NCBI GenBank assembly: GCA_028874195.1
Contig: JAPPLM010000080.1
Coordinates: 1-33,588, forward strand
DNA: 33,588 nucleotides
Direction of reading: 5' to 3'
Source: Chloroflexota bacterium
GTDB taxonomy: Bacteria > Chloroflexota > UBA11872 > VXOZ01
Below the pieces are notes generated by a model that did not search any database, had not been told where the DNA came from, and worked only from the letters and a program-made list of their open reading frames with translations. A program made the translations under genes and the position numbers. Position 1 is the stretch's first letter, and each line of letters opens with the position of its first letter. Of this stretch, positions 5,002 to 23,524 are shown in pieces.

Positions 5002-5051
5002 ATGATGAGACTGACGATAGTTGTAACGTCTTTGAATTGAGGAAACAGAGA

Positions 5052-7869: not shown

Positions 7870-8655
7870 ATGGCACAGGCAACAGTTGAAGTAACGACCG
7901 AGGAACAAGCCTTCTACCAGGAGAACGGTTATCTCCTGATTAAGGGCTTGGTATCGGCTGAGGGCATAGCGAAACTCAAGGAGCGGTTGGAAGAGTACAT
8001 GTACGACCGCTTGCCCGTGCCGGACGGTGTCAGGATCCAGGTTGAGCCGCGTGTGGAGCGTGGCGAAATGCCTTGGCCGGAGCGGCGCGGCGACGCGTAC
8101 CGCAAGATTGACCGGCTCGTCATTCACGACGACCGCTTCCGCGCGTTGGGGACGATGCCCGGAGTGGTGGAACGCATGCAGGCGCTCATCGGCAGCAAGA
8201 ACCTCAAGCTCTTTCGCGACTCCGCACTTATGAAACCGGCCCAGGTCGGTTCGGCCAAAGGCATGCACCAGGATTCGCCTTACTGGCCGATTGAGCCGAT
8301 GGAGTTGAGCTCATGCTGGATGCCCTTTGAGCCTGCCACCCCGGAGAATGGTTGCATTACCGCCATTCCCGGCAGTCACAAGCGTGGCCCAGTCCCTCAT
8401 GAGCGCGTGCCGGACGACTATATCGTCAACGAAAGCAATTACGATCCCAACGACGTGATTGCTGTGCCGATGGAAGCGGGCGACGGTCTCTTCTTCCATA
8501 GCCTTCTGCTCCACGGCACCGCGCCCAATCTTACGGCGAACTCGCGGCGGGCAATCACGATGAGCTATATGGCAACCGAGTTTCACTACACCGGCGATTC
8601 CCCTAAGCCGGACTACCTGCTTATCTGCGGCGAGGACATCCCAGGCGGCGTCTAG
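7870..8655 (+). CDS. Phytanoyl-CoA dioxygenase (PhyH) family protein
   Basis: A 261-residue Fe(II)/2-oxoglutarate-dependent oxygenase of the PhyH family. The iron-binding facial triad is visible as MHQDSPYW (H133, D135) and LLLHGTAPN (H215), and the 2-oxoglutarate-binding arginine follows in NSRRA (R226). The N-terminal EQAFYQENGYLLIKGLVS is the standard start of the fold. Members hydroxylate lipids, polyketides or small metabolites; the substrate is not predictable. PhyH families are notably expanded in some sponge symbionts. The ATG at 7870 has GGAGGAG at good spacing. The downstream permease starts 80 bases after the stop and could share the transcript. Confidence 0.88.
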   Translation: MAQATVEVTTEEQAFYQENGYLLIKGLVSAEGIAKLKERLEEYMYDRLPVPDGVRIQVEPRVERGEMPWPERRGDAYRKIDRLVIHDDRFRALGTMPGVVERMQALIGSKNLKLFRDSALMKPAQVGSAKGMHQDSPYWPIEPMELSSCWMPFEPATPENGCITAIPGSHKRGPVPHERVPDDYIVNESNYDPNDVIAVPMEAGDGLFFHSLLLHGTAPNLTANSRRAITMSYMATEFHYTGDSPKPDYLLICGEDIPGGV

Positions 8656-8735: not shown

Positions 8736-10472
8736 TTGGCTGTAGCCCGCTTGAATGAGAACATCCGCCATGAGCCGGACGAACCGTGCTCGCTGTTTGA
8801 GGCGGTTGCGGTTGGAGCGCAGGGCGTACTAATAGTTGTCGCGCCCGCAGTCGTTATCGTTGCTATCACGGCGGTGGCATCCGGTCAAGACGAACGCTAT
8901 CTGACGTGGGCGGTATTTGCGTCACTCATCATTGGCGGGGCAATCACGGCGCTGCAGGCGGCTGGCATCGGCTGGCTGGGTACTCGCCATCTCTTGATAA
9001 CCGGCACTACGCCGAACTATGTAGCCGTCTCGGTGCTGGCATTGGACCAAGGCGGCCCGGCCGCACTCGCAAGTCTGATCGTCCTTTCGTCGCTGTTCTA
9101 CCTGGCCATTGCCGTTTGGCTGCCGCGCTTGCGGCGAATCGTCACGCCGGCCGTTTCCGGCACGGTGCTCATGCTTATCGCAACGATGATCCTGCCGGTG
9201 GCGTTAGATCGCATGCATGAAGTGCCCGAAGGCACCCTGCCGATCGCGGGTCCGTTCGTTGCGCTCGTTACACTCATAGCAACTGCCGTTCTGGCCTTAC
9301 GCGCGCCCGTGTCTTGGCGGCTGTGGTCACCGCTCCTTGGCATTGGCGCGGGCTGTGTGGTAGCCGCCTTCTTTGGCATGTACGATTTCGAGCGACTCGT
9401 TACCGCGCCTTGGTTCGGCTTACCCGATGGCGGGTTTCCCGGACTGGAGCTATCCCCGCCGACAGGCTTTTGGGCGTTGTTGCCGATGTTTTTGGTTGTA
9501 GCCCTCGTGCAGGCCATCAAGACCGTAGGCGACGCGATGGTCGTCCAGCAAGTCTCACAGCGCAAACAACGCGCCATCGACTTCCGCTTGTTTCAGGGGG
9601 CTCTCTACGCCAACGGAGTTGGCATACTGCTTTCCGGTCTTGCGGGCACGCCGCCCACGAGCGCATACTCGTCGTCCACCGTCTCGCTCATCAATCTTAC
9701 CGGCATCGCCGCGCGCAGAGTTGGCTACGCCATAGGCGTGATTTTTCTAATTCTGGCGCTATTCCCGAAAGTCACGGGCTTGCTGCTCACGATTCCTACC
9801 CCTATCATGGGTGCCTTCCTGTTGTTCGCCATCGGGATACTGTTCTTCGAAGGAATTCGGACAGTGGCGCGCTCCGGCCTTAGCTATCAAGATGCTATGA
9901 TTGTCGGTCTGTCATTTTCCATCGGGGTTGGATTGCAGAACCAGAACATCTTCGCGGGGATACTTAGCTCGCCTTGGGACGCCTTGCTCGGCAACGGCAT
10001 TACCATCGGCGCTGCTGTGGCCATTGGCTTGACTATCCTTTTGGATTTGACCGGCCCACGCCGTCGCCGCTTGGAAACCCGGCTGGCTGCTTCCAGTATT
10101 CCTCACATCGACGAATTCTTGCAGGAGGTTGCCGCCAAGTTGAATTGGGGAAGCGCCGCTACTGAGAAACTGCGCTCTGCGGGCGAAGAGACACTTTCTA
10201 GCCTCCTGCAGCCGGGCAACGAATACCCAACGGACGCTACGCCGCGCTTGATCATCATGGCGCGCACTGATGCGAATGCGGTGGACCTGGAGTTTCTTGC
10301 CGTATTCGCAGAAGACAACCTGGAAGATCGTCTCGCCCACTTGGACGAGCAGTCCGAGACCAGCGACAACAGAGAAGTGTCATTTCGCCTGCTCCGGCAT
10401 TATGCATCGTCGGTCCGCCACCAGAAGTATCACGGCTTGGACATTGTCACGGTGCGGGTTGAGGGCTCGTAG
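8736..10472 (+). CDS. NCS2 nucleobase permease with C-terminal cytoplasmic domain
   Basis: A 578-residue protein. Residues from about 25 to 445 are a 14-segment NCS2 (xanthine/uracil, SLC23) transporter with LLITGTTPNYVAVS, KTVGDAM in the substrate-binding TM8 region and GLAGTPPTSAYSSSTV in the TM10 region. From about residue 450 a soluble domain follows (IPHIDEFLQEVA, LRSAGEETL, NLEDRLAHL, RLLRHYASSVRHQ), which looks like a degenerate GHKL/anti-sigma-type ATPase fold; the usual N-box Asn after the Glu pair is absent. Ordinary NCS2 proteins are about 430-460 residues, so the extension adds about 130. The TTG at 8736 has AAGGGG six bases upstream. Role: uptake of a purine or pyrimidine, perhaps coupled to regulation through the tail. 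Confidence 0.85.
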   Translation: MAVARLNENIRHEPDEPCSLFEAVAVGAQGVLIVVAPAVVIVAITAVASGQDERYLTWAVFASLIIGGAITALQAAGIGWLGTRHLLITGTTPNYVAVSVLALDQGGPAALASLIVLSSLFYLAIAVWLPRLRRIVTPAVSGTVLMLIATMILPVALDRMHEVPEGTLPIAGPFVALVTLIATAVLALRAPVSWRLWSPLLGIGAGCVVAAFFGMYDFERLVTAPWFGLPDGGFPGLELSPPTGFWALLPMFLVVALVQAIKTVGDAMVVQQVSQRKQRAIDFRLFQGALYANGVGILLSGLAGTPPTSAYSSSTVSLINLTGIAARRVGYAIGVIFLILALFPKVTGLLLTIPTPIMGAFLLFAIGILFFEGIRTVARSGLSYQDAMIVGLSFSIGVGLQNQNIFAGILSSPWDALLGNGITIGAAVAIGLTILLDLTGPRRRRLETRLAASSIPHIDEFLQEVAAKLNWGSAATEKLRSAGEETLSSLLQPGNEYPTDATPRLIIMARTDANAVDLEFLAVFAEDNLEDRLAHLDEQSETSDNREVSFRLLRHYASSVRHQKYHGLDIVTVRVEGS

Positions 10473-10685: not shown

Positions 10686-11600
10686 TCAGCCTTGGGTGGT
10701 TGTGATCTGATCGACAAACTCCCGCACCACAGCCGCACAGTCCTCCGGTTGTTCCAGGGGGAGAAAGTGTGTGGCATCAGGCAAGAAGTCGTAGTCCACG
10801 CTAAGAATGTCGCTTAGATCTAACGTTGGAAGGTACGAGTAGGGCAGAGTGGGATCAGCCCCGATCACCTTTATGGGACAGTGAAACTTCCCAAAATCCA
10901 CAAGCACAGCGTAGGGGCTGGCGTAGTCCACAATCTGCGCTTCATACTCTGGCGGACACCGCAACTCAAAGCCGGATCCCCCTTCACTATTGCGCAACGT
11001 GGCCTGCGCGATGAGTCTAGTAGTGCCAGGAACGGTGTGCCGGAACGTCGGCGCAAAACTGAGCAGTTCCTCGAAGTCCTCCCTGGATTTGAAGTGAAAA
11101 GTGCGTCTTCTGGCATACCCTGCCGCGCGTGTCGCTGCCGCATCGAACTCCTCGTAGCTGGCTCCTGGCTTGCAGAGCGGGGGGTCAAAGAGGATGAGCG
11201 CCGCGTGCCGGCTGCCCTTCGTCGGCGAAACGAGCGTCGCCAGAGAAGAAACTGAGTGATAAACCCCAGTCAGGGGCTTCTCGCCAAAGTGGGACTCAAT
11301 CGCATCCAGGATGAGGTCATGATCGTCGGCGAAGGTCGCAACAGTGTGCTCTCTTATCGAACTGACGGTGTTCCAGCCATGGTTTCTCAAGTCATGCACG
11401 ATGAGGTCGAAGTCGTCGGCGAGCAGAGACCAGAAGGGGTAGTACAGGTCGATGGCCAGACCGTTGCCATGGCACAGCACAAGCCGCGGGCCGTCAGGAT
11501 TGCCGTGGCGTCGCAGAGTGATAGTGGTTTCATCATCCACCGGAACGTCCAACGTGGCGAGGGGTTGGGGTACGTGCCAAATTGCATCCGAATCTGTCAT
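10686..11600 (-). CDS. Alpha/beta hydrolase, likely offloading or editing enzyme of the PKS locus
   Basis: A 304-residue alpha/beta-hydrolase. The oxyanion segment is LCHGNG (43-47), the nucleophile elbow is GVYHSVSS with Ser116, and the catalytic His is in DATHFLP (H278); D249 (IGADP) is the best acid candidate. The elbow is unusual: the two glycines of GxSxG are Tyr and Ser. No signal peptide is seen, so the protein is cytoplasmic. It lies seven bases downstream of the phosphopantetheinyl transferase, so it belongs to the same transcript. By position it may hydrolyse the finished chain from the carrier protein, because the PKS itself has no thioesterase domain; this is inference. It faces the permease gene tail to tail. 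Confidence 0.75.
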   Translation of the reverse strand: MTDSDAIWHVPQPLATLDVPVDDETTITLRRHGNPDGPRLVLCHGNGLAIDLYYPFWSLLADDFDLIVHDLRNHGWNTVSSIREHTVATFADDHDLILDAIESHFGEKPLTGVYHSVSSLATLVSPTKGSRHAALILFDPPLCKPGASYEEFDAAATRAAGYARRRTFHFKSREDFEELLSFAPTFRHTVPGTTRLIAQATLRNSEGGSGFELRCPPEYEAQIVDYASPYAVLVDFGKFHCPIKVIGADPTLPYSYLPTLDLSDILSVDYDFLPDATHFLPLEQPEDCAAVVREFVDQITTTQG

Positions 11601-11607
11601 TGAGGTG

Positions 11608-12321
11608 CTAGTCTTTCCGCGCTGAGACTCCGCTCAATTCAATTGCTACAGCAGCCGCGAATTCCTGGTTGCCGAGGTCTTCGATTTGCCACGTGACCTC
11701 GGGCAGTCGTGGCAACTGTAGCATACCGCTCTCTCTGCCGCCTACCGTCGCTGCGGGAATCCTGATGCACGTTGCGTCCAGCACGAATCCTTCGCCCAAC
11801 GCCTTCAATACCGCTTCTTTGAGGGTCCACAGCTTGAAAAAGAGGTGCGTTCGCGCTTGTCCTTGGGTCAAGGCAAGTGCCGTCTTCTCTTCCGGGCCAA
11901 GCACGGTGTCGATAAGCAAGCTGAGGTCACGCCGCGGGTCGCGTTCCTCGATGTCCACGCCCAAGCGTCCGGTTGGAGCGCACGCCACCAGCCCATGGTT
12001 CCCACTGTGGCTCACGTTGAAGCTAACGGAAGCGGGTTGGTCTTGCACCAGTGCGTACGGTTTTCCAAAGCGGGACGCGCGAAAGGCAAGCTGCTCGTTC
12101 TGGCAATGCAGCTCCTCACAGAGAATGGCGCGCAGAGCGGCGCGACACAGTGTAAAGCGACGGCGCGGCCCATCATACGCGAAGCGCTGCCGGCGAGCTT
12201 GCTCCTGGCCGTCGAGCCATCCCAAGGCTTCACTTTCCCATTCTTTATTCGGGTGATAAGTCAACGTGGATGATAGTCGTACTGCCAACGTCCCTGAAGT
12301 GGTTGCACCAACTGCTGTCAA
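11608..12321 (-). CDS. Sfp-type 4'-phosphopantetheinyl transferase
   Basis: A protein of up to 237 residues that transfers the phosphopantetheine arm from CoA to a serine of carrier proteins. Motifs in order are RFGKPYAL (84-91), SVSFNVSHSG (98-107), LGVDIEE (120-126, Mg2+ ligands D123 and E125) and FKLWTLKEAVLKALGEG (162-178, with W165, K168 and E169). Length is normal for the Sfp/Gsp class. Its place next to a PKS and a free ACP indicates those are its targets. The TTG at 12321 is the outermost start and has no obvious ribosome-binding site; internal TTG codons at residues 12 and 20 are possible. The gene follows a strong terminator, so it probably has its own promoter. Confidence 0.9.
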   Translation of the reverse strand: MTAVGATTSGTLAVRLSSTLTYHPNKEWESEALGWLDGQEQARRQRFAYDGPRRRFTLCRAALRAILCEELHCQNEQLAFRASRFGKPYALVQDQPASVSFNVSHSGNHGLVACAPTGRLGVDIEERDPRRDLSLLIDTVLGPEEKTALALTQGQARTHLFFKLWTLKEAVLKALGEGFVLDATCIRIPAATVGGRESGMLQLPRLPEVTWQIEDLGNQEFAAAVAIELSGVSARKD

Positions 12322-12354: not shown

Positions 12355-12385
12355 AGTATAGGCACTGGCGGATGTCGAATTTCAA
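12355..12385 (-). promoter_or_regulatory. Weak candidate promoter for PPTase and hydrolase
   Basis: TTGAAA and TATACT, each five of six consensus, are separated by 19 bases, slightly long. The -35 element overlaps the end of the terminator's U-tract. It would restart transcription for the transferase and hydrolase after the ACP terminator. Confidence 0.3.
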
Positions 12386-12413
12386 AAAAAGCGCCGCTCC
12401 TCATGGAGCGGCG
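12384..12413 (-). terminator. Rho-independent terminator after the ACP gene
   Basis: A perfect nine-base-pair G+C-rich stem (CGCCGCTCC with GGAGCGGCG, four-base loop) is followed on the minus strand by GC and seven consecutive T. It ends the ACP transcript about 60 bases past its stop and separates it from the PPTase. Confidence 0.9.
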
Positions 12414-12471
12414 ACTCTTCCGAACCAAGTGACGAAGACTCAGTCCCAAGTTTCATTGCTTAGGCGCCTGC

Positions 12472-12717
12472 CTAGGCAGCTTGCGAATCGAGGAACTCGA
12501 TAAGCTCTTGTAGGTTGTTGATGGTTGGGCACTGCTCGCGAGAAAACTCCAGTTTGAACTCCTGAGCGACCACTTTGGTAAAGGCGACCACATCCATGGA
12601 AGATACGCCCGCCTCCGTCAGACTGACGCTCAAATCGAGCGATGAACTGAGCGGCTTTCCGTCTACTTCAAGATTGTCAGCGACGAGTTGCCTAATTCGA
12701 TCTTCCGTTGAAGCCAT
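12472..12717 (-). CDS. Free-standing acyl carrier protein
   Basis: An 81-residue acyl carrier protein. The phosphopantetheine site is GVSSMDVV, with S40 at the position of the Ser in the canonical DSL triplet. The four-helix pattern is complete, ending in NLQELIEFLDSQ. The start ATG has a very strong ribosome-binding site, AGGAGGAAA. It is separated from the PKS stop by 172 bases containing a promoter, and is followed by a terminator, so it is its own transcription unit and could be made in excess over the PKS. The PKS ends in a KS-AT module lacking a carrier domain, and this protein is the obvious candidate to supply that function in trans. An acpP for primary fatty-acid synthesis is less likely: the site reads SSM rather than DSL and no fab genes are nearby. 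Confidence 0.9.
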   Translation of the reverse strand: MASTEDRIRQLVADNLEVDGKPLSSSLDLSVSLTEAGVSSMDVVAFTKVVAQEFKLEFSREQCPTINNLQELIEFLDSQAA

Positions 12718-12765
12718 GCCTGTTTCCTCCTCTTTTGAAATGCTTCATTGCATAGAACTGTTGGC

Positions 12766-12794
12766 AGCATAGCAAGACAAGCCGTACTCGTCAA
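12766..12794 (-). promoter_or_regulatory. Promoter of the free-standing ACP gene
   Basis: TTGACG (five of six) and TATGCT (four of six) lie exactly 17 bases apart on the minus strand, about 50 bases upstream of the ACP start codon and inside the gap after the PKS stop. Good consensus and spacing. Confidence 0.55.
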
Positions 12795-12889
12795 ATCTAC
12801 TGTACCGTCTCTTGTCTACGCTTTTAAACATTGGGCGTAATTCTGGGGCACAATCCTGAAAATCAATCCTGAGACGTAATCGCCTTTCT

Positions 12890-15800
12890 TCAGGTCGATG
12901 CAATTCCCTTCGATGCCGCTATCCAGTGGCGGCGGCGCTGGAAGGGATAGCTCGGCAGCCCGATGCGCCGCCGAGACTCCCCGGTGAAGAGTCCTTTGAG
13001 TGAGATTGTGAGGCCGGTTTCGTATGCCTTTGCCACCGCCTCGAGAAACCCACGGTCAGAGTCGCAGGGCGGACTATCGGCTGAAGGACGTAAAAGGCTC
13101 TCGATTATCACCGGCATGGGGGCGTTAGACGCCGCTCCGGTCTGAACCGGCCACAAGTCTTGTATGGTAGGAGTGAGCCCTGGCTGCGGACCAATCTCGA
13201 TAACCAGGTCTACGCCCAGTTCCGCCAACGTTTCGATGCAGCTTTGGAGATTCGCTGTCTCACCTGCTTGCTGCTCCCAGTAGGTCCCCTCGAGCAATGC
13301 TTCCGGTTCTGCCACGCGCCCCGTTACGCTGCTCACCAGCGGTACGGACGGTTGTGCAGCCTCAACGCCCGCAAAGGCCGCGTTCAGTTCACTTGAGTTC
13401 ACTGTATCCGCCTGACCGGCAGTGGCGGCTGTCGACAAAGCGCCTCGCGCTGCGGCAAGGCGCAACCCATCCTCAAGACCGAATACACCCGCTGCTTGCG
13501 CTGCCGCAAGCTCGCCGAGGTCGTGGCCCACGACCACGCTCGGTTGAATGCCTATGCTCGCCCACAGCGCCGTGAGCGCGCACTCGAGCGCGTATACGGC
13601 CGGCTGCGCCCACGTTGGGTCGTCCAGATCTGCTGCGTCACCGGCCCGACCAAACATCACGTCCAACAACGAGGTACTGCATTCCTTCAAGAGAAAAGCG
13701 TCACAGCGGTCGAGAACCGCGCGAACCACGGGATCTTGATCGTAGAGCGCTTTGCCCATGCCAACCCATTGGCTACCCTGATCGGTAAACGCAAAGGCTA
13801 CTGTACTTACTGCCCGCGGTTCAGGTTCCTCGAGGTCTCCTTCCGTTTCGGCGAGATCTTCTAACTGTTCTCGCAATTCCATAAAATCTTGGAACGTTAA
13901 TCCTGCACGATGCGGGAAATGGCTGCGTCCGACGCTGGCAGTCCAAGCCATATCCGAGAGCAGGGAAGCAGCAGCGGGGTCTGCCGGGTCAAGAACCTCG
14001 GCATAGCCATCGAGCCAGGTCAAATAGCGTTCTGCCAACTGGCGCAGAGCCTGACGGGTCTTGCCGGAGAGAGGCAACAGCTTTGTTGATCGTTCAGATT
14101 GCGCCTCCGCTACGGGAATTTCTGCGGCATCTTCCGGCAAGGGAGCAGGAACCTCACGTGATGCGCCGGCCGGCCAGCGGTCATTGGCATGTTCGGCGGA
14201 ATCATCTTCCGGCGCGCTGTAGCCTTCTACCACCACGTGCGCGTTTGCGCCTGAAATTCCAAAGACATTGACACTTGCGCGCTGTGGTTGCTTGGCAGCG
14301 CGAGGCCAATCCATGGCCTCGGACGTCACCCGCACCGGCAACCGCTCCCAATCGATGTCGGGATTCGGCGTGTGGAAGTTGAGGTGCCTTGGAATCAGCC
14401 CCCGATTCATTGCCAGGACAGTCTTGATCAGGCTGGCGACGCCGCCAGCCGCCTCCAGGTGGCCGATGTTCGTCTTGACCGAGCCGATCAACAGGGGGTT
14501 TTCAGCCTCGCGGCCTCGGCCATAGACGTTGGCTGCGGCATTGAGTTCGACCGCGTCGCCCAATGCTGTGCCGGGGCCGTGGGCTTCAAAGTAGTCCACC
14601 TCGGCCGGTGCGATACCTGCCTGCGCCAATGCTTCCTCCATAGCGCGCTCTTGGGCCGGCCCGTTGGGTAGCGTGAGACCCAAACCGGCGCCGTTCTGGT
14701 TCACTGCCGAACCACGCACCACGCCCCAGATGCGGTCGCCGTCCGCTTGAGCATCGCTCAGGCGCTTCAATATCACCATGCCGCAGCCCTCGCCCCGCAC
14801 GTATCCATCCGCTGATGCGTCGAACGTTCTGCACTGTCCGCTCAGCGAAAGCATGCCTGCGTCCGCCAAGAATCGCAGTACTGACTGTGAAAGCGCCGCA
14901 TTTACGCCTCCAGCCAGAGCCATGTCTATCTCGCCACGCTGCAAACTCGTAGCCGCTTGGTGCACCGCCACAAGCGATGCGGCGCAGGCCAACTCCAGCG
15001 GTACGGCCGGCCCTTCCAAACCGAGCGCAAAGGCAATCCGCCCCACGGTTACGCCGCCTGAAGTACCCAGGAAGTCATCGTCACTACCGCTGGCAGTAAT
15101 GACGCTCCGATACTCACTGCCGCCAACTCCTGCGTAGACACCGGTGCGGCTCCCCCGTAGACTATCGGGGTCAATCCCGGCATCCTCGAGGGCTTGCCAG
15201 CTCGTCTCCAACAGCAGCCGCTGCTGTGGGTCCATCATGCGTGCCTCGATGGGAGAAATGCGGAAGAACCGCGAATCAAAGAGGTCAATTCCTTCCAGGA
15301 ATGCCCCGTGTCGCATCGCAGCGTCTTTGGCCTCTGGGTCGCCGGCGATTCCGTTCCAGGATCCGGCGTCCTGACGCCCCTCTGTTACCATGTTTCGTTC
15401 CGATTGCATCAGCCTCCAGAAGCCATCAAGATCCTCTGCCCCCGGTACCCGGCACGCCATGCCGACAATGGCTATCCCCTCCTCTACGCTCGCAGCCTGC
15501 GGGCGCTGCTCCTGGACGGGCTGCTCGGGCAGTGTTGCCGGTACGTCAGCACCCGTGAATCCGTCGGCGCTGCCAAGTTCACCTGCCAGGTGGCGGGCAA
15601 GACCCGAGATACTCGGATAGTCGAAGACCACTGTATTGGATGCCACATACTCACCGGCAAAGCCGCGGTTGATGCGGTTGCGCAACTCTACCGCCATCAG
15701 CGAATCCATGCCCAAGTCGGAGAACTCGACGGTTGGCGCGGGAGTTGTGTTCAATCTCAGCACTGCTTGCACTTCCTGTTGCAGGAAGGCCGCCAGCACG

Positions 15801-18800
15801 TCCTCGCGCTCCGCCGGTGGCGCGTTCCGTAGCCGGGACAACAGGTCTTCCGACGTTGCTGCTTCATCGGCTTGCTCGTCAGTGGCCGAGGCGAGCAGGT
15901 CTTCCAAGAAAAGCGGACGATCCTCGACAGCCTCTGCAAACACCGACCAATCCATCGACATCACCACGGAGGTTGTGGCGTCCTGTCGCACCAGCAACTC
16001 AAGCGCCTTGATGCCTTGTTGCGGCGTAAACCAGCGACCGCCGAGGGCCGCCCGCCGCTGCTCGATCCGCTCGCGTTGTTCCGCGGCCTCGCCGATCTCC
16101 GACCACGCGCCCCAGGCAATGGCTTGTCCCGGCAGACCCAACGCGCGACGGTAGCCGGCAAGCTGGTCCAGAAAGGCATTGGCCGCGGCATGGTTCGCCT
16201 GGCCGGGATTGCCCATGACACCGACCCGGCTCGAAAAGAGGATGAACAGATCCAGATCACAGTCCAGGGTTGCGCGGTGCAGGTGCCAAGCCCCCAGAAT
16301 CTTCGGCCACAGCACGCGCTCGAAGCTCTCCCAGGTCTGGTTGGTAAGCGCGGCGTCCGACAGCACGCCCACACTGTGAATGACACCGCCCAGTGGCGGC
16401 AAGCTGGCATCGATGCGCGCCAACATGGCGTCGATGGCTGCAGTATCCGTCACGTCTGCCAGTTCGACTTCGATCCTGACCCCGCGATCACGCAGGGCAG
16501 CGATGGCTGCCTCCGCCTCGGCATCGGGATTACGGCGGCCGTTCAGCACGATTGTGCCCGCGCCGCAAGCCGCGAGCCATTCCGCCACGGCGCAGCCGAT
16601 GCCGCCCAGACCGCCGGTCACCAGGTAGGTGCGGTCCTGACGCAACTGACCCCGCAAGAGCGGAGGCGGCGTGAGCACGATCTTGCCAATGTGCCGGGCT
16701 GAGCGCATGAATCCCAAAGCGGCTCCCGCCTCGGCCAGCGGCCAGCGGCTATGGATGAGCGGCGTGAGGTCACCGGATACAATGCCATCCATGACCTCGC
16801 GCAGTACTTCCCCTACCCACGCCGGGTCGGTTTTCTTCAGAACATCCAGTTCCAGGATGTCGTACTTCACGTCCGGTCGGACGGCCGCCATCTCCTCGTG
16901 GCTGAGGATGTCCCGCCTGGCTAATTCGACAAAGCGTCCGCCCTGCGCCAGGCAGGCTAAACTGGCTTCGATAAAGCCCTCGCTTGTGAGGCTGTTCAGC
17001 ACTACATGCACACCCTCGCCGCCGGTGGCTGCGAGGATTTCATCGCCAAACGCGGTCGTGCGGCTGTCGAAAATGTGGTTGATGCCGACTGACCGGAGAT
17101 ATGCCTGCTTTGGCGCGCTGGCCGTGGCGAATACTTCCGCGCCGGCAGCTTGCGCCAACTGGATCGCTGCCAGTCCCACGCCACCCGCGCCCGCATGGAT
17201 CAGTACTCTGTCTCCCGGCTCCAGCCCGGAGTAATGGTATGACAGTGCAGCCGACACGAACGCGCTGGGCACGGTAGCCAACGCCGAGACTGACATGCCT
17301 TCAGGGGCCGGCGCCACCAACTCCTCATGCGTGACCATTTCCGGCGCAAATGCGCCGAAACCTAGTCCAACCACGCTATCGCCGACGGACACATTCGAGA
17401 CATCTGAGCCAACGTCGAGAATGCGACCGCACATCTCCCGGCCCAGATTGCCTTCCTCGATAAAGCCAAGCGAGCGGAAGACGTCCCAGAAATTCAGCCC
17501 GGTGGCCTCGACTGCGACGCGCACCTCATTCGGCTCCAAGGAGTGCGCGGGCAGCATCTTGATCTCCGGCTCGTCGAACACACCTCCTTTGTTAGGGACT
17601 AATACCCATTCCGATTCCTCTGGCAGGGAAAGGCGCTCAGACGCGGCAGCGGGCCGCAGCAGGCGTGCCGCATGACGGCTTCCCAACCGGTAGGCGATGT
17701 GGTTCTCGCGGTCGGGATACATGAGCTCATTCGCGAGGTCTGACAGCAGTTCAGGCTCGGCGGGATCCAAATCGATCATCCGGGGCTGCAGATGCGGGGC
17801 TTCCAAGGATACAACCTTGCCGAGACCCCACAGAGGGGCGCCGGCCAGTTCGCCGGCGTTCTCGCGTTCCAACACTTGTGCCCCGCGCGTGAAAAACCAC
17901 ACACCGTTTGCGGGAATCACGTCGGATTCGGCCACACCTTGTACCAGCGCCAGCGCACTTGCTCCTGCGCGTTTCACGTCCGCCGCAATCTCTTGAGTGG
18001 TTGCTTCCGCTCCGTGACCGTCCAAGCCCGCGAGGTGCACTACGCCGCTGAATGGAACATCCTGCGGTAGGCTCTCGATCAGCGTGCGCCACGCTTCACG
18101 AGACGCCATGTCAAATGCAGTTTTGCGAATCGCGGTGCCAACCACTGCCGTCACACCGCTTGCAGGCGCTGCGTCGCTTGCCAGGACGACTGTTTGATTT
18201 CGCTCCGCCAATTGCGCCGCGAGTTCTTCCGCCACGCTACCATTGTCTGCGGTCAGCACCCACACGCCGGGTGGTTCATCAATCTTTGCCGGACCGGAAG
18301 CTATGATCACACCCTTATCCGGCGTCTTGGATGAGTCGGCCTCGTCCGGCCCTAAGACTTCCGCTTCCGCGAAACCTGCGTCACTCAGAGCTTGGCGCCA
18401 CACCGCAGGGCTTGCCAAGGCGTGATGGGGGCGGTAGTCGTCGGCAAACCGCCACCAGCCGTCCAACTGTCCAAACGTCAGGTCCATCCAGCCCAGGCCG
18501 CTGAGATTCTCCAGCGCAATCAACTGTCCCGATGGCGCTAGCAGCGCCCGGCAATGCGCCAGCGTCTCTTCGAGATAGCGCGTGGCGTGCAGCACGTTGG
18601 AGGCAATCAATAGGTCATAGCCGTGGGCAGCGTAGCCCTGCTCGATGGGGTCTTTTTCAATGTCCAACGGACGGTATTCGATGCACCCGCCGCCATCGCC
18701 AAATCTCGCTTCCGCTTCTGCAAAGAAACCCGCTGAGATATCCGTGTACATGTAATCAAACTGGCCAGCAGGTAGCTCCGGCAGCACGGAGGCGGTTGCC

Positions 18801-19882
18801 GATCCCGTGCCCGCGCCGACCTCGATGACCCGCAGCCGCCGTCCTGTGGGCAGAGCGGCTACCAATGCCTGAACCGCGTCCGCCAGCATCCGGTTTGCCG
18901 CGCGGGCCACCGGCGCTTTCAGGTAGAGGTCGGCCGCCGTCGGTTCCCCGCTGCTGAAGAGCAGCGTCAAAGGGTCTTCCCGGCCGCGGAGCACCTCAGC
19001 CAGGGCGAGGCCGGACCGCCGGAAGAGGCCGATTTCAATCTGGCCCTGAGGGTATTGGCCTGTCATCCAATCTGTGAATGCTTCAATGTCGCTTGGCATC
19101 TCTTCCGGCAGCGGATCATCCGGGCCTACGACGACGACAAAGCCGTCGCTCGTTTCCTCAAGCACTTCTGACTTTGCGAGCATTTCAAATAGCCGGCGGA
19201 AAAGGCGCGTGTGCTCCGGGAGGACGTCAAGCTGCTGCCGCACCTCCTCCGGGTCCACGACAGCGCCCTTGACGCGCTGCCAGCCCAATTCCTCTAACGT
19301 CGCGAGCGCGCGGGACCGAGACCAGCGCTCCAAGTCCGCCAGCAGGGCGTCTCTGCCTTGCGGATCGACTTCCGCGTCCGTCAGGTATCCGGTGAACAAT
19401 TGCGTATGGGCCGCAATCTCGGACGGATTTGGGAAGAAGCCCGCAGGCAATACTCCAGACTCAAGCGCATGTTCGCGCCAGACGACCTCGTACAGCAGGT
19501 CGTCGACACCCTCTTCCCCTGCAACCGCCGCCAGCAAGGCCGCCTGTGTGGCGCGCTTCACCGTGTATCCGTTAATCTCACCGACTAATGCGCCATTTGG
19601 ATCGTAGATACGTACTTCGCCACTCAAGACTTCGGGCGGATCACCCCCTTCTGATTCGGCGTCCTGAGATGCTTCACTCATGACCACGTGGCAGATCACG
19701 CGCTCCGGCAGTCCTCCGGCAAGCCACAGACGCTCCCAGCCGAAGGGCAAATAGGTTGCCTCGCCCGGGGCGCCGGTCATGTTGCGTGCAACGCCTACGA
19801 CCTGAAAGCAGCCATCCAGCACAAGCGGGTGCACGTCTAGGTCATTGCGATCCAAACCCTCGGGCAGGGAGATTTCTGCCAA
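12890..19882 (-). CDS. Type I PKS, third frame segment: DH(end)-cMT-ER-KR-ACP-KS2-inactive AT2
   Basis: A 2,330-residue open frame; its natural reading begins near 19966 at the second frame break. Domains in order: end of DH with catalytic Asp in HPLVLDGCFQ (D23); C-methyltransferase with SAM motif VIEVGAGTG (352-360) and FGQLDGWWRFAD; a structural pseudo-KR; ER with HAGAGGVGLAA (896-906); KR with TGGLGGIG (1089-1096), whose catalytic Tyr position is His1231 (GQANHAAAN); ACP with GMDSL (Ser1394); KS2 with intact Cys1633, His1768 and His1808; and AT2. AT2 reads GHDLGE, with Asp2121 where the nucleophile Ser should be, and is about 70 residues shorter than AT1, missing the AFHSP catalytic His region. 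The frame ends right after LPSYPFQRRRHW with no carrier or thioesterase domain. Fully reducing, C-methylating chain extension is expected. Confidence 0.93.
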   Translation of the reverse strand: MAEISLPEGLDRNDLDVHPLVLDGCFQVVGVARNMTGAPGEATYLPFGWERLWLAGGLPERVICHVVMSEASQDAESEGGDPPEVLSGEVRIYDPNGALVGEINGYTVKRATQAALLAAVAGEEGVDDLLYEVVWREHALESGVLPAGFFPNPSEIAAHTQLFTGYLTDAEVDPQGRDALLADLERWSRSRALATLEELGWQRVKGAVVDPEEVRQQLDVLPEHTRLFRRLFEMLAKSEVLEETSDGFVVVVGPDDPLPEEMPSDIEAFTDWMTGQYPQGQIEIGLFRRSGLALAEVLRGREDPLTLLFSSGEPTAADLYLKAPVARAANRMLADAVQALVAALPTGRRLRVIEVGAGTGSATASVLPELPAGQFDYMYTDISAGFFAEAEARFGDGGGCIEYRPLDIEKDPIEQGYAAHGYDLLIASNVLHATRYLEETLAHCRALLAPSGQLIALENLSGLGWMDLTFGQLDGWWRFADDYRPHHALASPAVWRQALSDAGFAEAEVLGPDEADSSKTPDKGVIIASGPAKIDEPPGVWVLTADNGSVAEELAAQLAERNQTVVLASDAAPASGVTAVVGTAIRKTAFDMASREAWRTLIESLPQDVPFSGVVHLAGLDGHGAEATTQEIAADVKRAGASALALVQGVAESDVIPANGVWFFTRGAQVLERENAGELAGAPLWGLGKVVSLEAPHLQPRMIDLDPAEPELLSDLANELMYPDRENHIAYRLGSRHAARLLRPAAASERLSLPEESEWVLVPNKGGVFDEPEIKMLPAHSLEPNEVRVAVEATGLNFWDVFRSLGFIEEGNLGREMCGRILDVGSDVSNVSVGDSVVGLGFGAFAPEMVTHEELVAPAPEGMSVSALATVPSAFVSAALSYHYSGLEPGDRVLIHAGAGGVGLAAIQLAQAAGAEVFATASAPKQAYLRSVGINHIFDSRTTAFGDEILAATGGEGVHVVLNSLTSEGFIEASLACLAQGGRFVELARRDILSHEEMAAVRPDVKYDILELDVLKKTDPAWVGEVLREVMDGIVSGDLTPLIHSRWPLAEAGAALGFMRSARHIGKIVLTPPPLLRGQLRQDRTYLVTGGLGGIGCAVAEWLAACGAGTIVLNGRRNPDAEAEAAIAALRDRGVRIEVELADVTDTAAIDAMLARIDASLPPLGGVIHSVGVLSDAALTNQTWESFERVLWPKILGAWHLHRATLDCDLDLFILFSSRVGVMGNPGQANHAAANAFLDQLAGYRRALGLPGQAIAWGAWSEIGEAAEQRERIEQRRAALGGRWFTPQQGIKALELLVRQDATTSVVMSMDWSVFAEAVEDRPLFLEDLLASATDEQADEAATSEDLLSRLRNAPPAEREDVLAAFLQQEVQAVLRLNTTPAPTVEFSDLGMDSLMAVELRNRINRGFAGEYVASNTVVFDYPSISGLARHLAGELGSADGFTGADVPATLPEQPVQEQRPQAASVEEGIAIVGMACRVPGAEDLDGFWRLMQSERNMVTEGRQDAGSWNGIAGDPEAKDAAMRHGAFLEGIDLFDSRFFRISPIEARMMDPQQRLLLETSWQALEDAGIDPDSLRGSRTGVYAGVGGSEYRSVITASGSDDDFLGTSGGVTVGRIAFALGLEGPAVPLELACAASLVAVHQAATSLQRGEIDMALAGGVNAALSQSVLRFLADAGMLSLSGQCRTFDASADGYVRGEGCGMVILKRLSDAQADGDRIWGVVRGSAVNQNGAGLGLTLPNGPAQERAMEEALAQAGIAPAEVDYFEAHGPGTALGDAVELNAAANVYGRGREAENPLLIGSVKTNIGHLEAAGGVASLIKTVLAMNRGLIPRHLNFHTPNPDIDWERLPVRVTSEAMDWPRAAKQPQRASVNVFGISGANAHVVVEGYSAPEDDSAEHANDRWPAGASREVPAPLPEDAAEIPVAEAQSERSTKLLPLSGKTRQALRQLAERYLTWLDGYAEVLDPADPAAASLLSDMAWTASVGRSHFPHRAGLTFQDFMELREQLEDLAETEGDLEEPEPRAVSTVAFAFTDQGSQWVGMGKALYDQDPVVRAVLDRCDAFLLKECSTSLLDVMFGRAGDAADLDDPTWAQPAVYALECALTALWASIGIQPSVVVGHDLGELAAAQAAGVFGLEDGLRLAAARGALSTAATAGQADTVNSSELNAAFAGVEAAQPSVPLVSSVTGRVAEPEALLEGTYWEQQAGETANLQSCIETLAELGVDLVIEIGPQPGLTPTIQDLWPVQTGAASNAPMPVIIESLLRPSADSPPCDSDRGFLEAVAKAYETGLTISLKGLFTGESRRRIGLPSYPFQRRRHWIAASKGIAST

Positions 19883-21222
19883 AGCCTCGCCAGGACCGGA
19901 CCAGACCTTGCCAAGCGTACGGAAGAACTGACCCAGGTTGATACCGGTTGCAGCCTTCGCGCCGTATAGGCAGATTTATCAGCGGGTGAGAGACTTGCTC
20001 GCAGGCTATCCAGGTCAAGGTGTGCTGCGGTCTCCGGCGGTGCAGCGCCCGACGAGACTTGGGCCTCCACATGCAGGGTCCATTCGCCCTCAGTTCCCTT
20101 GCTGTAAATCTGGACGTGGCGCGACGCCGTTTCCTCTGATGCGTCGAGCAAAACCTGCACATGCCGGACCGCATCCTCGACCCCGTCACTCGAGTCATTC
20201 TCAGCAAATACCAGTGGGCTGTGCAGTTGCATGTCTTCAATCGCTATCGGGCCGTTTCCATCCAGGAACGCTAACGCGGCTGCCATTGCGCCGTAGAGCG
20301 CCCCCGGTACCACGAGTCGTCCGAAGACGCGGTGGTCTTGCAGCCAGGCCGGGTCTGATGGGTATACTTCTGTCTCGAAGATGATTTCGCCGCGGGCTGA
20401 TTCGTGGCGAAGGCCGAGCAAGGGGTGATCGGTGGTTGTTCGCCGTCGTTTTGCCGGTTGCAGCCAGTGGCGTTCGCGCTGGAACGGGTAGCCCGGCAAG
20501 GAGATGCGACGCCGGGTCTCTCCGGCGAATAAGCCCGCGAAAGAGACTTCGAGTCCCGCCTCGTAGGCCGCGGCTACCGCATCCACAAAGCTATTTTCAG
20601 ATTCAGGTGATGATCCATCTCGAGGCGGACGCCGCAGGCTAGAGAGCACAACCGGCGTCCCGACAGCATCTTGGTTCGATGCCGCATCAGGCCAGGCCAG
20701 CGTCGTCATGGGGCCCAGCACGGCGTGCGGGCCTATCTCGATCACGAGGTCTACGTTGCATTCAGCCAAGACTCGGACTCCGCTGGCAAACGCCACTGGC
20801 TCGCGCGCGTGCCGCCGCCAGTAAGCGCCGTCCAGCGCCATGCCGGAATCGACGGCACTGCCAGTCAGGTTGCTGATCACAGTCAAGGTGGGGGAACCAA
20901 TTGCCACATCATCCAGAGCAGCTTCCAACTCATCCAGGGCCGGTTCCACCAAGGGACTGTGGAAAGCGCGGGTCGTGTTGAGCCGCCGTACCCGTACCCC
21001 CTCCGATTCAAAGCGCTTCACGAGAGATTCAATGTTTGCAACCGGCCCGCTGACCACTGTGTGGGCGCCGTTGTCCGCCGCAAGGCTGAGACCGATGCCG
21101 TCGGACACCGCGTTGAGATCGTCAACCGCTGCCGCCACGCGCGACGCCGGGGCAAAGACGGCAGCCATCGTACCGGGTTCTGTTTCGGACAGGAGGGTGC
21201 CGCGCCGCGCGGCAAACCGCAT
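19837..21222 (-). CDS. Type I PKS, second frame segment: AT1(end)-DH(start)
   Basis: Middle part of the same synthase. The open frame continues upstream of the first ATG (21222) to the break near 21258. It holds the rest of AT1, with the ferredoxin-like subdomain and TTRAFHSPLV carrying the catalytic His88. The AFH pattern is of the malonyl-CoA type rather than the YASH methylmalonyl type, so methyl branches would come from the MT domain. After the LPGYPFQRERHW linker the DH domain starts (HPLLGLR). Its catalytic motif HxxxGxxxxP is intact as HRVFGRLVVP (H297). The frame leaves the protein sense after SPADKSAY near 19966; one added base would continue it as YGAKAATGINLGQFF into the next segment. 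It is not a separate gene. Confidence 0.88.
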   Translation of the reverse strand: MRFAARRGTLLSETEPGTMAAVFAPASRVAAAVDDLNAVSDGIGLSLAADNGAHTVVSGPVANIESLVKRFESEGVRVRRLNTTRAFHSPLVEPALDELEAALDDVAIGSPTLTVISNLTGSAVDSGMALDGAYWRRHAREPVAFASGVRVLAECNVDLVIEIGPHAVLGPMTTLAWPDAASNQDAVGTPVVLSSLRRPPRDGSSPESENSFVDAVAAAYEAGLEVSFAGLFAGETRRRISLPGYPFQRERHWLQPAKRRRTTTDHPLLGLRHESARGEIIFETEVYPSDPAWLQDHRVFGRLVVPGALYGAMAAALAFLDGNGPIAIEDMQLHSPLVFAENDSSDGVEDAVRHVQVLLDASEETASRHVQIYSKGTEGEWTLHVEAQVSSGAAPPETAAHLDLDSLRASLSPADKSAYTARRLQPVSTWVSSSVRLARSGPVLARLWQKSPCPRVWIAMT

Positions 21223-23333
21223 CCCGTCTTCCAGGCTGAAGACGCCCGTGGCCTGTGCGCGGCCAGTTCCCCGACGCTATGTCCCAGCACCACGCTCGGT
21301 TGGATGCCCACGCTTGCCCAGAGCGCCGTCAAAGCGCACTCCAGCGCGTACAAGGCCGGCTGCTCCCACGCGGTATCGCCCAAGTCGTCGCTCGCGCCGG
21401 GCCGCCCGAACATAACGTCCAGGAGAGAGGCACCTCTTTCTTCCTGGAATACCGCTTCACAACGGTCCAGCACCGCTCTCGCTACCGGCTCCGTCTCGTA
21501 GAGGGCCTTGCCCATGCCAACCCACTGGCTCTCTTGCCCCGTGTAGACGAACGCCACTTGAGATGGCGGTGAGGACTTCTCTGTAGCGGTGGCCTCAGTC
21601 AGCTCGCTGAGCCGCTCTTTCAATGAGGCGATGTCGTGAAAGACGGCGCTCGCACGGTGGTCGAAGTGGCCCCGTCCGATACCCGCTGTCCATGACATGT
21701 CCGCAAGCAAAGACTCCAAGTCTGCGACTTCTTCGGAAGTCTCTGCCGCCCGTTCGTCGAGCCACGCGAGATACCGTTGCGCAAGTTCCCGGAGCGCGCC
21801 CTCGGACTTGGCCGACAGTGGCAGGAACCGGGCTTGGCGTTGTGCAAACTCTTCCTGTTGCGGGGCTGAAGCGGTCACTGGCTCAGGTAGCGAGACCGCC
21901 ACAGCCTGTGCCGCGCCCGCCGTCTGAAGCTCCTGACTGGGTTCACCGTTTGTGCCGCGATACTCCCCCACCACAATGTGGGCATTCGTCCCGGAAATCC
22001 CGAAAGAATTCACCCCCGCGAGGCGCGGCCGTTGGCGGTCTTGCGGCCAGTCCATCATGTCTGATGTTATCTGCAGCGGCAGACGCTCCCAGTCCGTACT
22101 GGGATTGGGGTCACGGAAGTGCAGGTGTTTGGGAATCACCCCTGTATTCACCACCAGCGCCGCTTTGATGACCCCTGCGATGCCGGCCGCGGATTCCAAG
22201 TGGCCGACGTTTGTTTTCACAGAGCCTACGAGCAACGGATGGTTGGGGTCGCGCTCGCGGCCGTACACATTGGCCACGGCATCTATTTCGATGGGATCGC
22301 CAACGGCGGTTCCTGTGCCGTGCGCCTCAAGATAATCGACCTGCGAGGGGAGTACGCCTGCGTCAGCCAAGGCGGTTTCCATCACTTGTTCCAACGCGGG
22401 CGTGTGTGGAACGGTCAGGCCGACGCTGGCGCCGCCGTGATTTACCGCTGAGCTGCGAATCACCGCCCAGATGCGATCCCCGTCAGCCTCCGCCTCGCTG
22501 AGCCGCTTCAAGACAACGACCCCGCAGCCTTCGCCTCGCACGTAGCCGTCCGCAGAGGCATCGAAGGTCTTGCACTGGCCTTCCGGGGACAGCATCATCG
22601 ACTCGGCGCGCAATTCGTAAATGCGACCGTTTAAAATGGCCTGCACGCCGCCCGCGATGGCGAGGTCCGCTTTGCCGTGCTGCAGGTCTGCCACCGCGTC
22701 ATTTACGGCCACCATGGCTGAGGCGCACGCAGCGTCCACAGCCTTTGCCGGTCCCATGAGACCCAGAACAAAGGAGACTCGACCGCTGGTGCCATTGAGG
22801 TTGGTGCCGCTCAGGGCGTAGAGAGAGCCCGCAGCCTCGCCAGGCTTGGTGGAGTCTACGACCAGCATGCGGTATTCGTCGTTGCTGATGCCGGTGTACA
22901 CGCCGGTGCGGCTGCCTTTCAGTCGGCTGGGATCGATGCCCGCGTCCTCGAGGGCGAGCCAGCTTGCCTCAAGCATCATGCGTTGCTGTGGGTCTAGCAT
23001 CTCGGCCTCAACCGGCGAAATGCGGAAGAACTCCGCGTCAAACTTGTCGATGTCATCGACAAAGGCACCGAAGCGGCATGCCTGGTTTTGCACGTCAAGA
23101 TCGCGGAAGATTTCCCCCATGCGACCCTCACCGGAAGCGAGGTCGCCTTCGGTGACCGCATTCTTGCCATCTAGCAGGAACTGCCAGAAGGAGTCCAAGT
23201 CACCGGCGCCGGGAAAGCGGCACGCCATACCGACAATGGCAATTGGTTCGTCAGGTTGTGAAGTATTCTTATTCACAGGACGCGGCCGGCTAGTCGCGTG
23301 TGTAGGGCTACTTTGAATATCAGCTGACCCCAT
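21018..23333 (-). CDS. Type I PKS, first frame segment: KS1-AT1(start)
   Basis: Start of the synthase. The ATG at 23333 has AAAGG six bases upstream; a TTG at 23339 is less likely. KS1 occupies about residues 28-455, with the active-site Cys in DAACASAM (C203), His in EAHGTGTAVGD (H338) and His in KTNVGHLES (H378). The DAACASA form differs from the common DTACSSS. AT1 begins at FVYTGQESQWVGMG and reaches the nucleophile elbow GHSVGELAA (Ser686). Beyond about position 21258 this frame turns to nonsense; restoring one G (GCG to GCGG) gives GELAAAQATGVFSLEDG and joins the second segment. The three segments together encode about 3,480 residues: KS-AT-DH-MT-ER-KR-ACP-KS-AT*. The layout recalls the sup/swf mono-modular PKSs of sponge symbionts, linked to methyl-branched fatty acids. 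Confidence 0.92.
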   Translation of the reverse strand: MGSADIQSSPTHATSRPRPVNKNTSQPDEPIAIVGMACRFPGAGDLDSFWQFLLDGKNAVTEGDLASGEGRMGEIFRDLDVQNQACRFGAFVDDIDKFDAEFFRISPVEAEMLDPQQRMMLEASWLALEDAGIDPSRLKGSRTGVYTGISNDEYRMLVVDSTKPGEAAGSLYALSGTNLNGTSGRVSFVLGLMGPAKAVDAACASAMVAVNDAVADLQHGKADLAIAGGVQAILNGRIYELRAESMMLSPEGQCKTFDASADGYVRGEGCGVVVLKRLSEAEADGDRIWAVIRSSAVNHGGASVGLTVPHTPALEQVMETALADAGVLPSQVDYLEAHGTGTAVGDPIEIDAVANVYGRERDPNHPLLVGSVKTNVGHLESAAGIAGVIKAALVVNTGVIPKHLHFRDPNPSTDWERLPLQITSDMMDWPQDRQRPRLAGVNSFGISGTNAHIVVGEYRGTNGEPSQELQTAGAAQAVAVSLPEPVTASAPQQEEFAQRQARFLPLSAKSEGALRELAQRYLAWLDERAAETSEEVADLESLLADMSWTAGIGRGHFDHRASAVFHDIASLKERLSELTEATATEKSSPPSQVAFVYTGQESQWVGMGKALYETEPVARAVLDRCEAVFQEERGASLLDVMFGRPGASDDLGDTAWEQPALYALECALTALWASVGIQPSVVLGHSVGELAAHRPRASSAWKTGCGLPRGAAPSCPKQNPVRWLPSLPRRRAWRQRLTISTRCPTASVSALRRTTAPTQWSAGRLQTLNLS

Positions 23334-23524
23334 TGTCAACCTTTCATGGCGTATGCACTGAGCGCTGCGACAGCTCTTTTGCTTGCTATCGAGCGGATGT
23401 GTGATTCGGCTATATTAGTGCAGGGCACGTCGCACATTTGGCGACAACAGCTTTAGAGGTATTTTACACCGAATTGCTGCCTTGATTCGAGGGTGCTTTT
23501 ATACCAAAGCAGCGTGAGGCGACA

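Follow-up and report, generated by a model that had tools for sequence, protein, structure and literature searches.

The free ACP gene beside the large PKS of the window, which is the whole stretch of 33,588 nucleotides analysed here, may encode a dedicated, separately transcribed carrier of a type II-like kind, working together with KS2, the last ketosynthase in a sup-type iterative PKS (KS1-AT1-DH-MT-ER-KR-ACP1-KS2-pseudoAT2). The probability of this reading is put at roughly 0.5. As far as can be judged by sequence, what speaks for it is a separate gene, a conserved promoter, an exact co-occurrence of ACP and PKS in the class genomes sampled, a dead AT2, an intact KS2 site, and a PPTase and a hydrolase as neighbours.

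The gene order in the window is PKS-ACP-PPTase-hydrolase-permease. The PKS lies on the minus strand and is spread over three ORFs: an N-terminal one with KS1 and the N-part of AT1 (GHSVG) at 21018..23339, a middle one with the C-part of AT1 and the N-part of DH at 19837..21222, and a C-terminal one with part of DH, MT, ER, KR, the cis carrier ACP1, KS2 and pseudo-AT2 at 12890..19882. Over these ORFs Pfam gives the domain order KS1-AT1-DH-MT-ER-KR-ACP1-KS2-AT2, and it found no loading domains ahead of KS1 in the window. Compared with its nearest relative, the PKS is split by two single-base frame breaks (window 19837-21300), which are either sequencing errors or decay; unbroken PKS frames of more than 3,100 codons are present in other genomes. 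The PKS probably builds methyl-branched lipids. On the same strand follow the ACP (12472..12717), a 4'-phosphopantetheinyl transferase (PPTase) adjoining it, whose true start is probably inside the ORF (11608..12321), and an alpha/beta hydrolase that is a candidate thioesterase (10686..11600). The presumed Ser, Asp and His triad positions of the hydrolase, assigned by eye, are each kept in 70/70 covering rows. The permease, of the Xan_ur_permease family, is convergent on the plus strand (8736..10472), at the place expected for SupE. Beside the cassette, at 3589-6449 and 7870-8655, are what we take, by eye, to be two related neutral ceramidase-like genes and a phytanoyl-CoA dioxygenase-like gene.

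The earlier note had read the PKS as stopping directly after the AT2 linker, and this is what the domain search finds: the stop codon is at 12890-12892, no PP-binding match lies past AT2, and the sole carrier domain, ACP1 (residues 1367-1432 by Pfam; 15587..15787, minus), comes before KS2. The ORF ends in ...LPSYPFQRRRHWIAASKGIAST*, with the post-AT linker ...YPFQRRRHW.... KS2, whose N and C parts were placed by Pfam at 14372..15481 (minus), has an intact Cys-His-His site. The same holds across the relatives, where an alignment of 76 rows, one contig being entered twice, keeps the Cys in 75/75, the first His in 71/73, the Lys in 73/73 and the second His in 72/73, gaps uncounted. For comparison, KS1 keeps its Cys in 43/43 and its His in 57/57 rows, and AT1 its Ser in 61/61. 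At the catalytic Ser position of AT2, 64 rows have Gly (52), Asp (8), Asn (2) or Ser (2) and 12 rows have gaps; the two rows with a retained Ser are L119 and L132. The AT2 of the window, which with the post-AT linker forms the C-terminus of the PKS (12893..13795, minus), has GHDLG in place of GHSxG, and an FHS motif was not found in it.

AT2 also appears to lack its small subdomain. The span from GHxxG to YPFQ is 150-199 residues in 60 of 66 AT2 rows and 31-139 in the other six, against a median of 263 in 60 AT1-like stretches. No FHS motif of the His subdomain was found in 65 complete AT2 tails, one of which, L091, has an FHA string, whereas 41 of the 51 distinct AT1-like stretches compared do have FHS, one of the 51 being the short AT2 of L119. 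These 65 tails, free of stops and X, end no more than about 22 residues past the post-AT linker. It is this short length and the missing FHS, and not the model, that indicate the loss of the small subdomain: the KS2-AT2 model has a pLDDT of 71.5, is poor in parts, and shows no strand of at least 3 residues in residues 660-765. Altogether AT2 is predicted to be a dead pseudo-acyltransferase. At four loci (L061, L062, L121 and L129) the pseudo-AT is nearly gone, with 31-49 residues from the motif position to YPFQ, and the linker YPFQRRR stays, hinting that the post-AT linker itself matters.

The condensing chemistry of KS2 is less clear-cut. The KS1 motif of the window is HGTGT, as in 57/57 KS1 rows, and KS2 of the window has HGPGT; other KS2 rows have HGAGS, HATGS and further substitutions, and one or other His is absent in three alignment cells. 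These substitutions and the three lost His leave condensation by KS2 in doubt. In a tree, the KS2 rows (72) lie on one side of a branch and the KS1 rows (19) on the other; the tree is unrooted and has no outgroup, and it fits a KS2 that would have arisen once and kept its chemistry while the AT was lost.

That the next gene is an ACP of 81 residues, as the earlier note had it, is well supported: the ORF at 12472-12717 (minus) matches PF00550 with an E-value of 1.1e-7 and 32.5 bits, above the gathering cut-off of 20.8, and has the phosphopantetheine attachment Ser40 in GVSSMD. This Ser is kept in 84/84 rows. In these rows it is preceded by Ser, Pro, Thr or Ala, and in none by the Asp of the usual DSL motif. 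With the ACP profile, the score is 20-28 bits for five housekeeping AcpPs and 1.2 bits for ACP1 of the PKS, which rules out a detached cis PKS ACP, and in a search with the profile the solved type II ACPs come first. The modelled fold is AcpP-like, with a moderate pLDDT of 78 and a best Foldseek E-value of 2.9e-3. In size, fold and profile match the free ACP thus seems to resemble the type II ACPs of fatty acid synthases and not the cis PKS ACP. It differs from type II AcpP in its altered DSL motif and in its score against NCBIfam TIGR00517 (acyl_carrier), 24 bits against a cut-off of 70.45. A role as the housekeeping carrier was ruled out, as the genome's AcpP is another gene, located close to a KS gene on contig C22. 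The earlier note had treated the free ACP as a carrier split off from an otherwise ordinary final module, and this had to be given up: the AT of the half-module is, on its residues, dead, and the ACP is of the type II kind.

The arrangement was compared over 82 loci, made up of the window, the best 80 of 103 named contigs and one further genome; 81 of them have enough upstream DNA. Of these loci, 58 have the ACP behind the PKS on the same strand, 14 have it on the opposite strand and 4 have it upstream of the PKS; the other 6 stretches have no PKS, three of them with less than 1.2 kb upstream of the ACP. Where the PKS is upstream on the same strand, 83-1977 nt lie between the stop of the KS2-bearing frame and the start of the ACP in 54 measured loci, the larger gaps including PKS genes with a broken frame; in the window the gap is 172 nt. 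PKS and ACP are separate genes in each locus compared, and no fusion was seen. A fusion by stop read-through was considered for L039 and L015, where the frame is open into the ACP, and was taken as chance; in the sister locus L040 the gap is 112 nt and out of frame.

As 80 loci were located through ACP motifs, this set is unable to reveal a PKS without an ACP, and only the search of the class can. Among 41 class genomes, searched with thresholds of E <= 1e-12 for the ACP and E <= 1e-150 for the KS1/KS2 PKS, ACP and PKS were found together in 26 and both were missed in the same 15. Homologous loci without the ACP would have refuted the earlier note, and in these genomes no PKS was found without it. 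The cassette genes mostly travel together, and therefore the co-occurrence is not specific to KS2 and the ACP as a pair.

No PKS lies within the available stretch of L058, L108 and L134. L108 shares its MAG, SB0666_bin_1, with L112, which has the whole cassette, so this MAG has a second ACP copy apart from the full cassette. In G003, one species of the genus (L033/L058, L050 and L051), an ACP-PPTase-hydrolase-permease block with an intact ACP promoter lies beside a solute-binding gene. Loss of the PKS in G003 was ruled out by PKS pieces on contigs C44 and C52; that PKS and ACP are on different contigs is possibly misbinning. Two ACP copies were also seen in G011 (L043, L044), one divergent from the PKS and one beside a hydrolase only, and an Acidimicrobiia contig (L129:1-11127) has, in tandem, two ACP copies and portions of two PKS genes.

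The ACP was also claimed to have its own promoter with a 17-base spacer. On the minus strand of the window this promoter consists of the -35 element TTGACG (12794-12789), an N17 spacer and the -10 element TATGCT (12771-12766) with a TG ahead of it, both elements being picked out by the scan and by comparison across loci. A consensus scan of 801 nt found 1 promoter where 0.6 +/- 1.1 are expected from shuffles. The promoter and terminator scan of the window, being no better than shuffles, was dropped as stand-alone evidence, and comparison was used instead. Unremarkable by scan alone, the promoter is convincing by comparison: TTGANN-N17-TANNNT is found upstream of the ACP in 50/81 loci, PKS-inverted loci included (shuffled mean 0.72, maximum 3), a count that is not a probability, the loci being related and not independent draws. 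With spacers of 16-18 it is found in 55/81 loci (shuffled mean 2.06, maximum 9), namely 42/58 with the ACP behind the PKS, 10/14 with it on the opposite strand, 0/4 with it upstream of the PKS and 3/6 at PKS-less loci. The strict pattern is absent from 31/81 loci, including all 4 with the ACP upstream of the PKS, and 7 loci of one Chloroflexota sub-group have the extended -10 only. Taken singly, only 15/81 loci have a consensus score higher than 95% of their own shuffles; the force lies in the set. As controls, the DNA upstream of the hydrolase has the pattern in 7/67 loci, which is above its own shuffles (mean 0.15, maximum 2), and that upstream of the permease in 0/46, or 5/46 with spacers of 16-18.

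Within the genus, the DNA upstream of the ACP is largely scrambled except for TTGAC, the extended TGCTANNNT and the start region; the first two are kept in 5/5 ACP-bearing genomes, with a spacer of 17 and once of 18. Other genera of the class have the same site in other letters: TTGATC-17-TACACT, TTGACG-17-TATAGT and TTGAAT-17-TACCGT. The promoter is also kept in G003, where the gene upstream is that of the solute-binding protein and not the PKS, and in L047-L049, where the PKS is about 230 to 1,640 nt away. From sequence, we infer that the ACP promoter works.

The signals around the gene are less general than the promoter. The very strong ribosome-binding site that had been reported is there in the window, where AGGAGG (12726..12731, minus) lies 8 nt before the ATG, but it does not hold for the family: among the 82 loci, which include the best 80 of the 103 contigs, the core is GGAGG in 23, AGGAG in 10, weaker in 39 and none in 10, so 33/82 have a strong core and 49/82 a weaker one or none. 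Similarly, the terminator that had been called perfect does have a hairpin of 9 bp with a loop of 4 (12413-12392) and a T-run on the 3' side of the ACP (12384..12413, minus), but by scan it is at chance level, with 1 found in 801 nt and 1.0 +/- 1.2 expected. A terminator-like stem follows the ACP in 17/81 loci, where 1.7 are expected from shuffles keeping single-base content only. Over the locus set, a terminator after the ACP is more frequent than chance and is not general. The hairpin CGCCGCTCC...GGAGCGGCG (12392-12413) is kept in 4/5 genomes of the genus, and two show a clear T-run. Between PKS and ACP the scan found no terminator-like site in the window, and therefore some read-through is likely.

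With a dead AT2 and no cis carrier, KS2 could only pass a chain on or condense it with malonyl on a trans carrier, for which the dedicated ACP beside a PPTase and a hydrolase would be the obvious candidate. In the proposed mechanism, the PPTase would arm the free ACP, and a finished or once-methylated chain would move from ACP1 to the KS2 cysteine. KS2 would give this chain to the free ACP directly, or by one last decarboxylative condensation, the malonyl for which would be loaded onto the free ACP by AT1 or by FabD, and the genome does contain a FabD. The free ACP would then carry the chain to the hydrolase for release or to the fatty acid synthase for elongation, and its own promoter would allow acceptor ACP to be kept in supply regardless of how much of the very large PKS is made. 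It is conceivable, if somewhat unlikely, that the arrangement is a hand-over port from the PKS to the type II fatty acid synthase, at which the PKS adds one methylated unit, KS2 condenses the chain with malonyl on the FAS-like ACP, and the chain returns to the fatty acid synthase to be elongated further. Against the free ACP as partner of KS2, the hydrolase could act on ACP1 directly.

CalA3 of the calcimycin pathway, the nearest example that has been worked out, also counts against that partnership, as there a module with neither an ACP nor a live AT functions with no ACP to accept the chain. In the available part of PMC10006239, it is described as an ACP-less PKS module that has lost the Ser-His dyad of its AT (Ser->Gly, His->Leu) and whose KS catalyses an amidation or a hydrolysis. 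On this precedent, KS2-pseudoAT2 would release the chain unaided, coupling it to water, an amine or an alcohol, with the free ACP serving some other step, which we consider unlikely and still worth weighing. The likeness is close in several respects: no ACP after the AT, AT Ser and His lost (with the Ser replaced by Gly in 52 and by Asp in 8 of the 64 AT2 rows), and a KS that is active in CalA3 and has an intact site here. CalA3 differs in its inactive DH and KR, and AT2 here is also without the small subdomain and comes with a dedicated ACP gene. The KS2-AT2 model aligns with CalA3 (7wvz) with Z 44.0 over 734 residues and an rmsd of 3.8, and with ordinary KS-AT didomains with Z 45-47 (up to 47.1); it is like CalA3 and no closer to it than to ordinary didomains, the Z for CalA3 being slightly below theirs, and therefore the structure does not choose between them. 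A release module, however, leaves the exact ACP co-occurrence and the neighbouring hydrolase unexplained, and it sits poorly with both His and the Lys of the condensing site being kept in nearly all KS2 rows.

The free ACP may instead be a loading carrier that brings a fatty acyl starter from the fatty acid synthase to KS1, KS2 having another role. This is rather improbable: its type II-like character, the lack of loading domains before KS1 and the adjoining PPTase would suit such a role, but it gives no reason for a second, ACP-less KS half-module with an intact active site. Nor do we give much credit to ACP, PPTase and hydrolase being a small pathway of their own that accompanies the PKS and nothing more. 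Both strands and both sides of the PKS are used by the ACP, the three PKS-less stretches named above exist, and G003 has its PKS pieces and its ACP on different contigs, all of which would be in keeping with it, but presence and absence match perfectly over 41 genomes and G003 still has both. The idea of the earlier note that the ACP is made in excess to store the finished product is hardly credible. It could draw on the conserved promoter, on the strong ribosome site and terminator of the window, and on the 33 loci with a strong core, but the other 49 loci have a weaker ribosome site or none, the stem follows the ACP in only 17 of 81 loci, and in the window PKS and ACP have no terminator between them.

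The sup (sponge symbiont ubiquitous PKS) cluster is reportedly that of Fieseler et al. in 2007 and Hochmuth et al. in 2010. Its PKS architecture, which we take to be KS-AT-DH-MT-ER-KR-ACP, consists of domains that Pfam also finds in the PKS of the window. By gene order and content, set against sup by description only, we infer that the cassette is the sup cluster. The available text of PMC4245539 and PMC9864124 links sup, a small PKS, to methyl-branched fatty acids, and Table 1 in the accessible part of PMC3908369 names SupE as a permease. Here the permease is the fifth gene, after PKS-ACP-PPTase-hydrolase, and adjoins the cassette in the window and in many loci, so that by position it would correspond to the SupE named there. 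The sup PKS is called monomodular in what is available of PMC4245539, whereas here the module is followed by a second KS whose AT is dead, and then by the free ACP. Searches of full-text literature, with the original sup papers and most subscription papers lying outside it, returned no description of supB-supD, of a KS2-pseudoAT end, of a free-ACP partner or of the promoter; the original sup papers may already list the free ACP, or indeed the second KS as well.

Another widespread sponge-symbiont PKS/FAS, swf, is different. In the available part of PMC3908369, SwfA is KS-AT-DH-ER-KR-ACP with the KS motif HATGT, SwfB is a reductase-sulphotransferase, a radical SAM gene is found in two of three clusters, and neither an MT nor a free ACP is described. 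The window has HGTGT in KS1 and HGPGT in KS2, and its neighbours are ACP, PPTase, hydrolase and permease, which is not the swf arrangement of HATGT with SwfB and SwfC alongside.

According to the available part of PMC4245539, sup-type PKSs predominate among the PKSs of sponges rich in microbes, what they make is known by inference only, and as of 2014 the organism they come from was described as unresolved. If the cassette is sup, its conserved KS-pseudoAT end with a separately promoted ACP would be a concrete exit step, and its hosts would be named in ten phyla by submitter title. If the port between the PKS and the fatty acid synthase is real, it would account for mid-chain methyl branches in sponge symbionts of many phyla.

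By submitter title, the MAG contigs with the cassette (a tree of 69 KS2 rows, L055-L134) belong to ten phyla: Chloroflexota, Acidobacteriota, Gemmatimonadota, Latescibacterota, Nitrospirota, Actinomycetota, Binatota, Thermodesulfobacteriota (Dadabacteria), Pseudomonadota and Verrucomicrobiota. The isolate codes of these MAGs are, we presume, sponge-derived. From these codes and the literature, the titles being silent on it, the MAGs are probably from sponges. A KS clade that is specific to sponges and occurs in several phyla was already reported, as the available text of PMC10308959 has it. On the KS2 tree the phylum labels are interleaved, with 20 changes where the minimum is 9 and shuffles give 38, which, with the caution that titles and bins can be wrong, suggests transfer of the cassette among symbionts.
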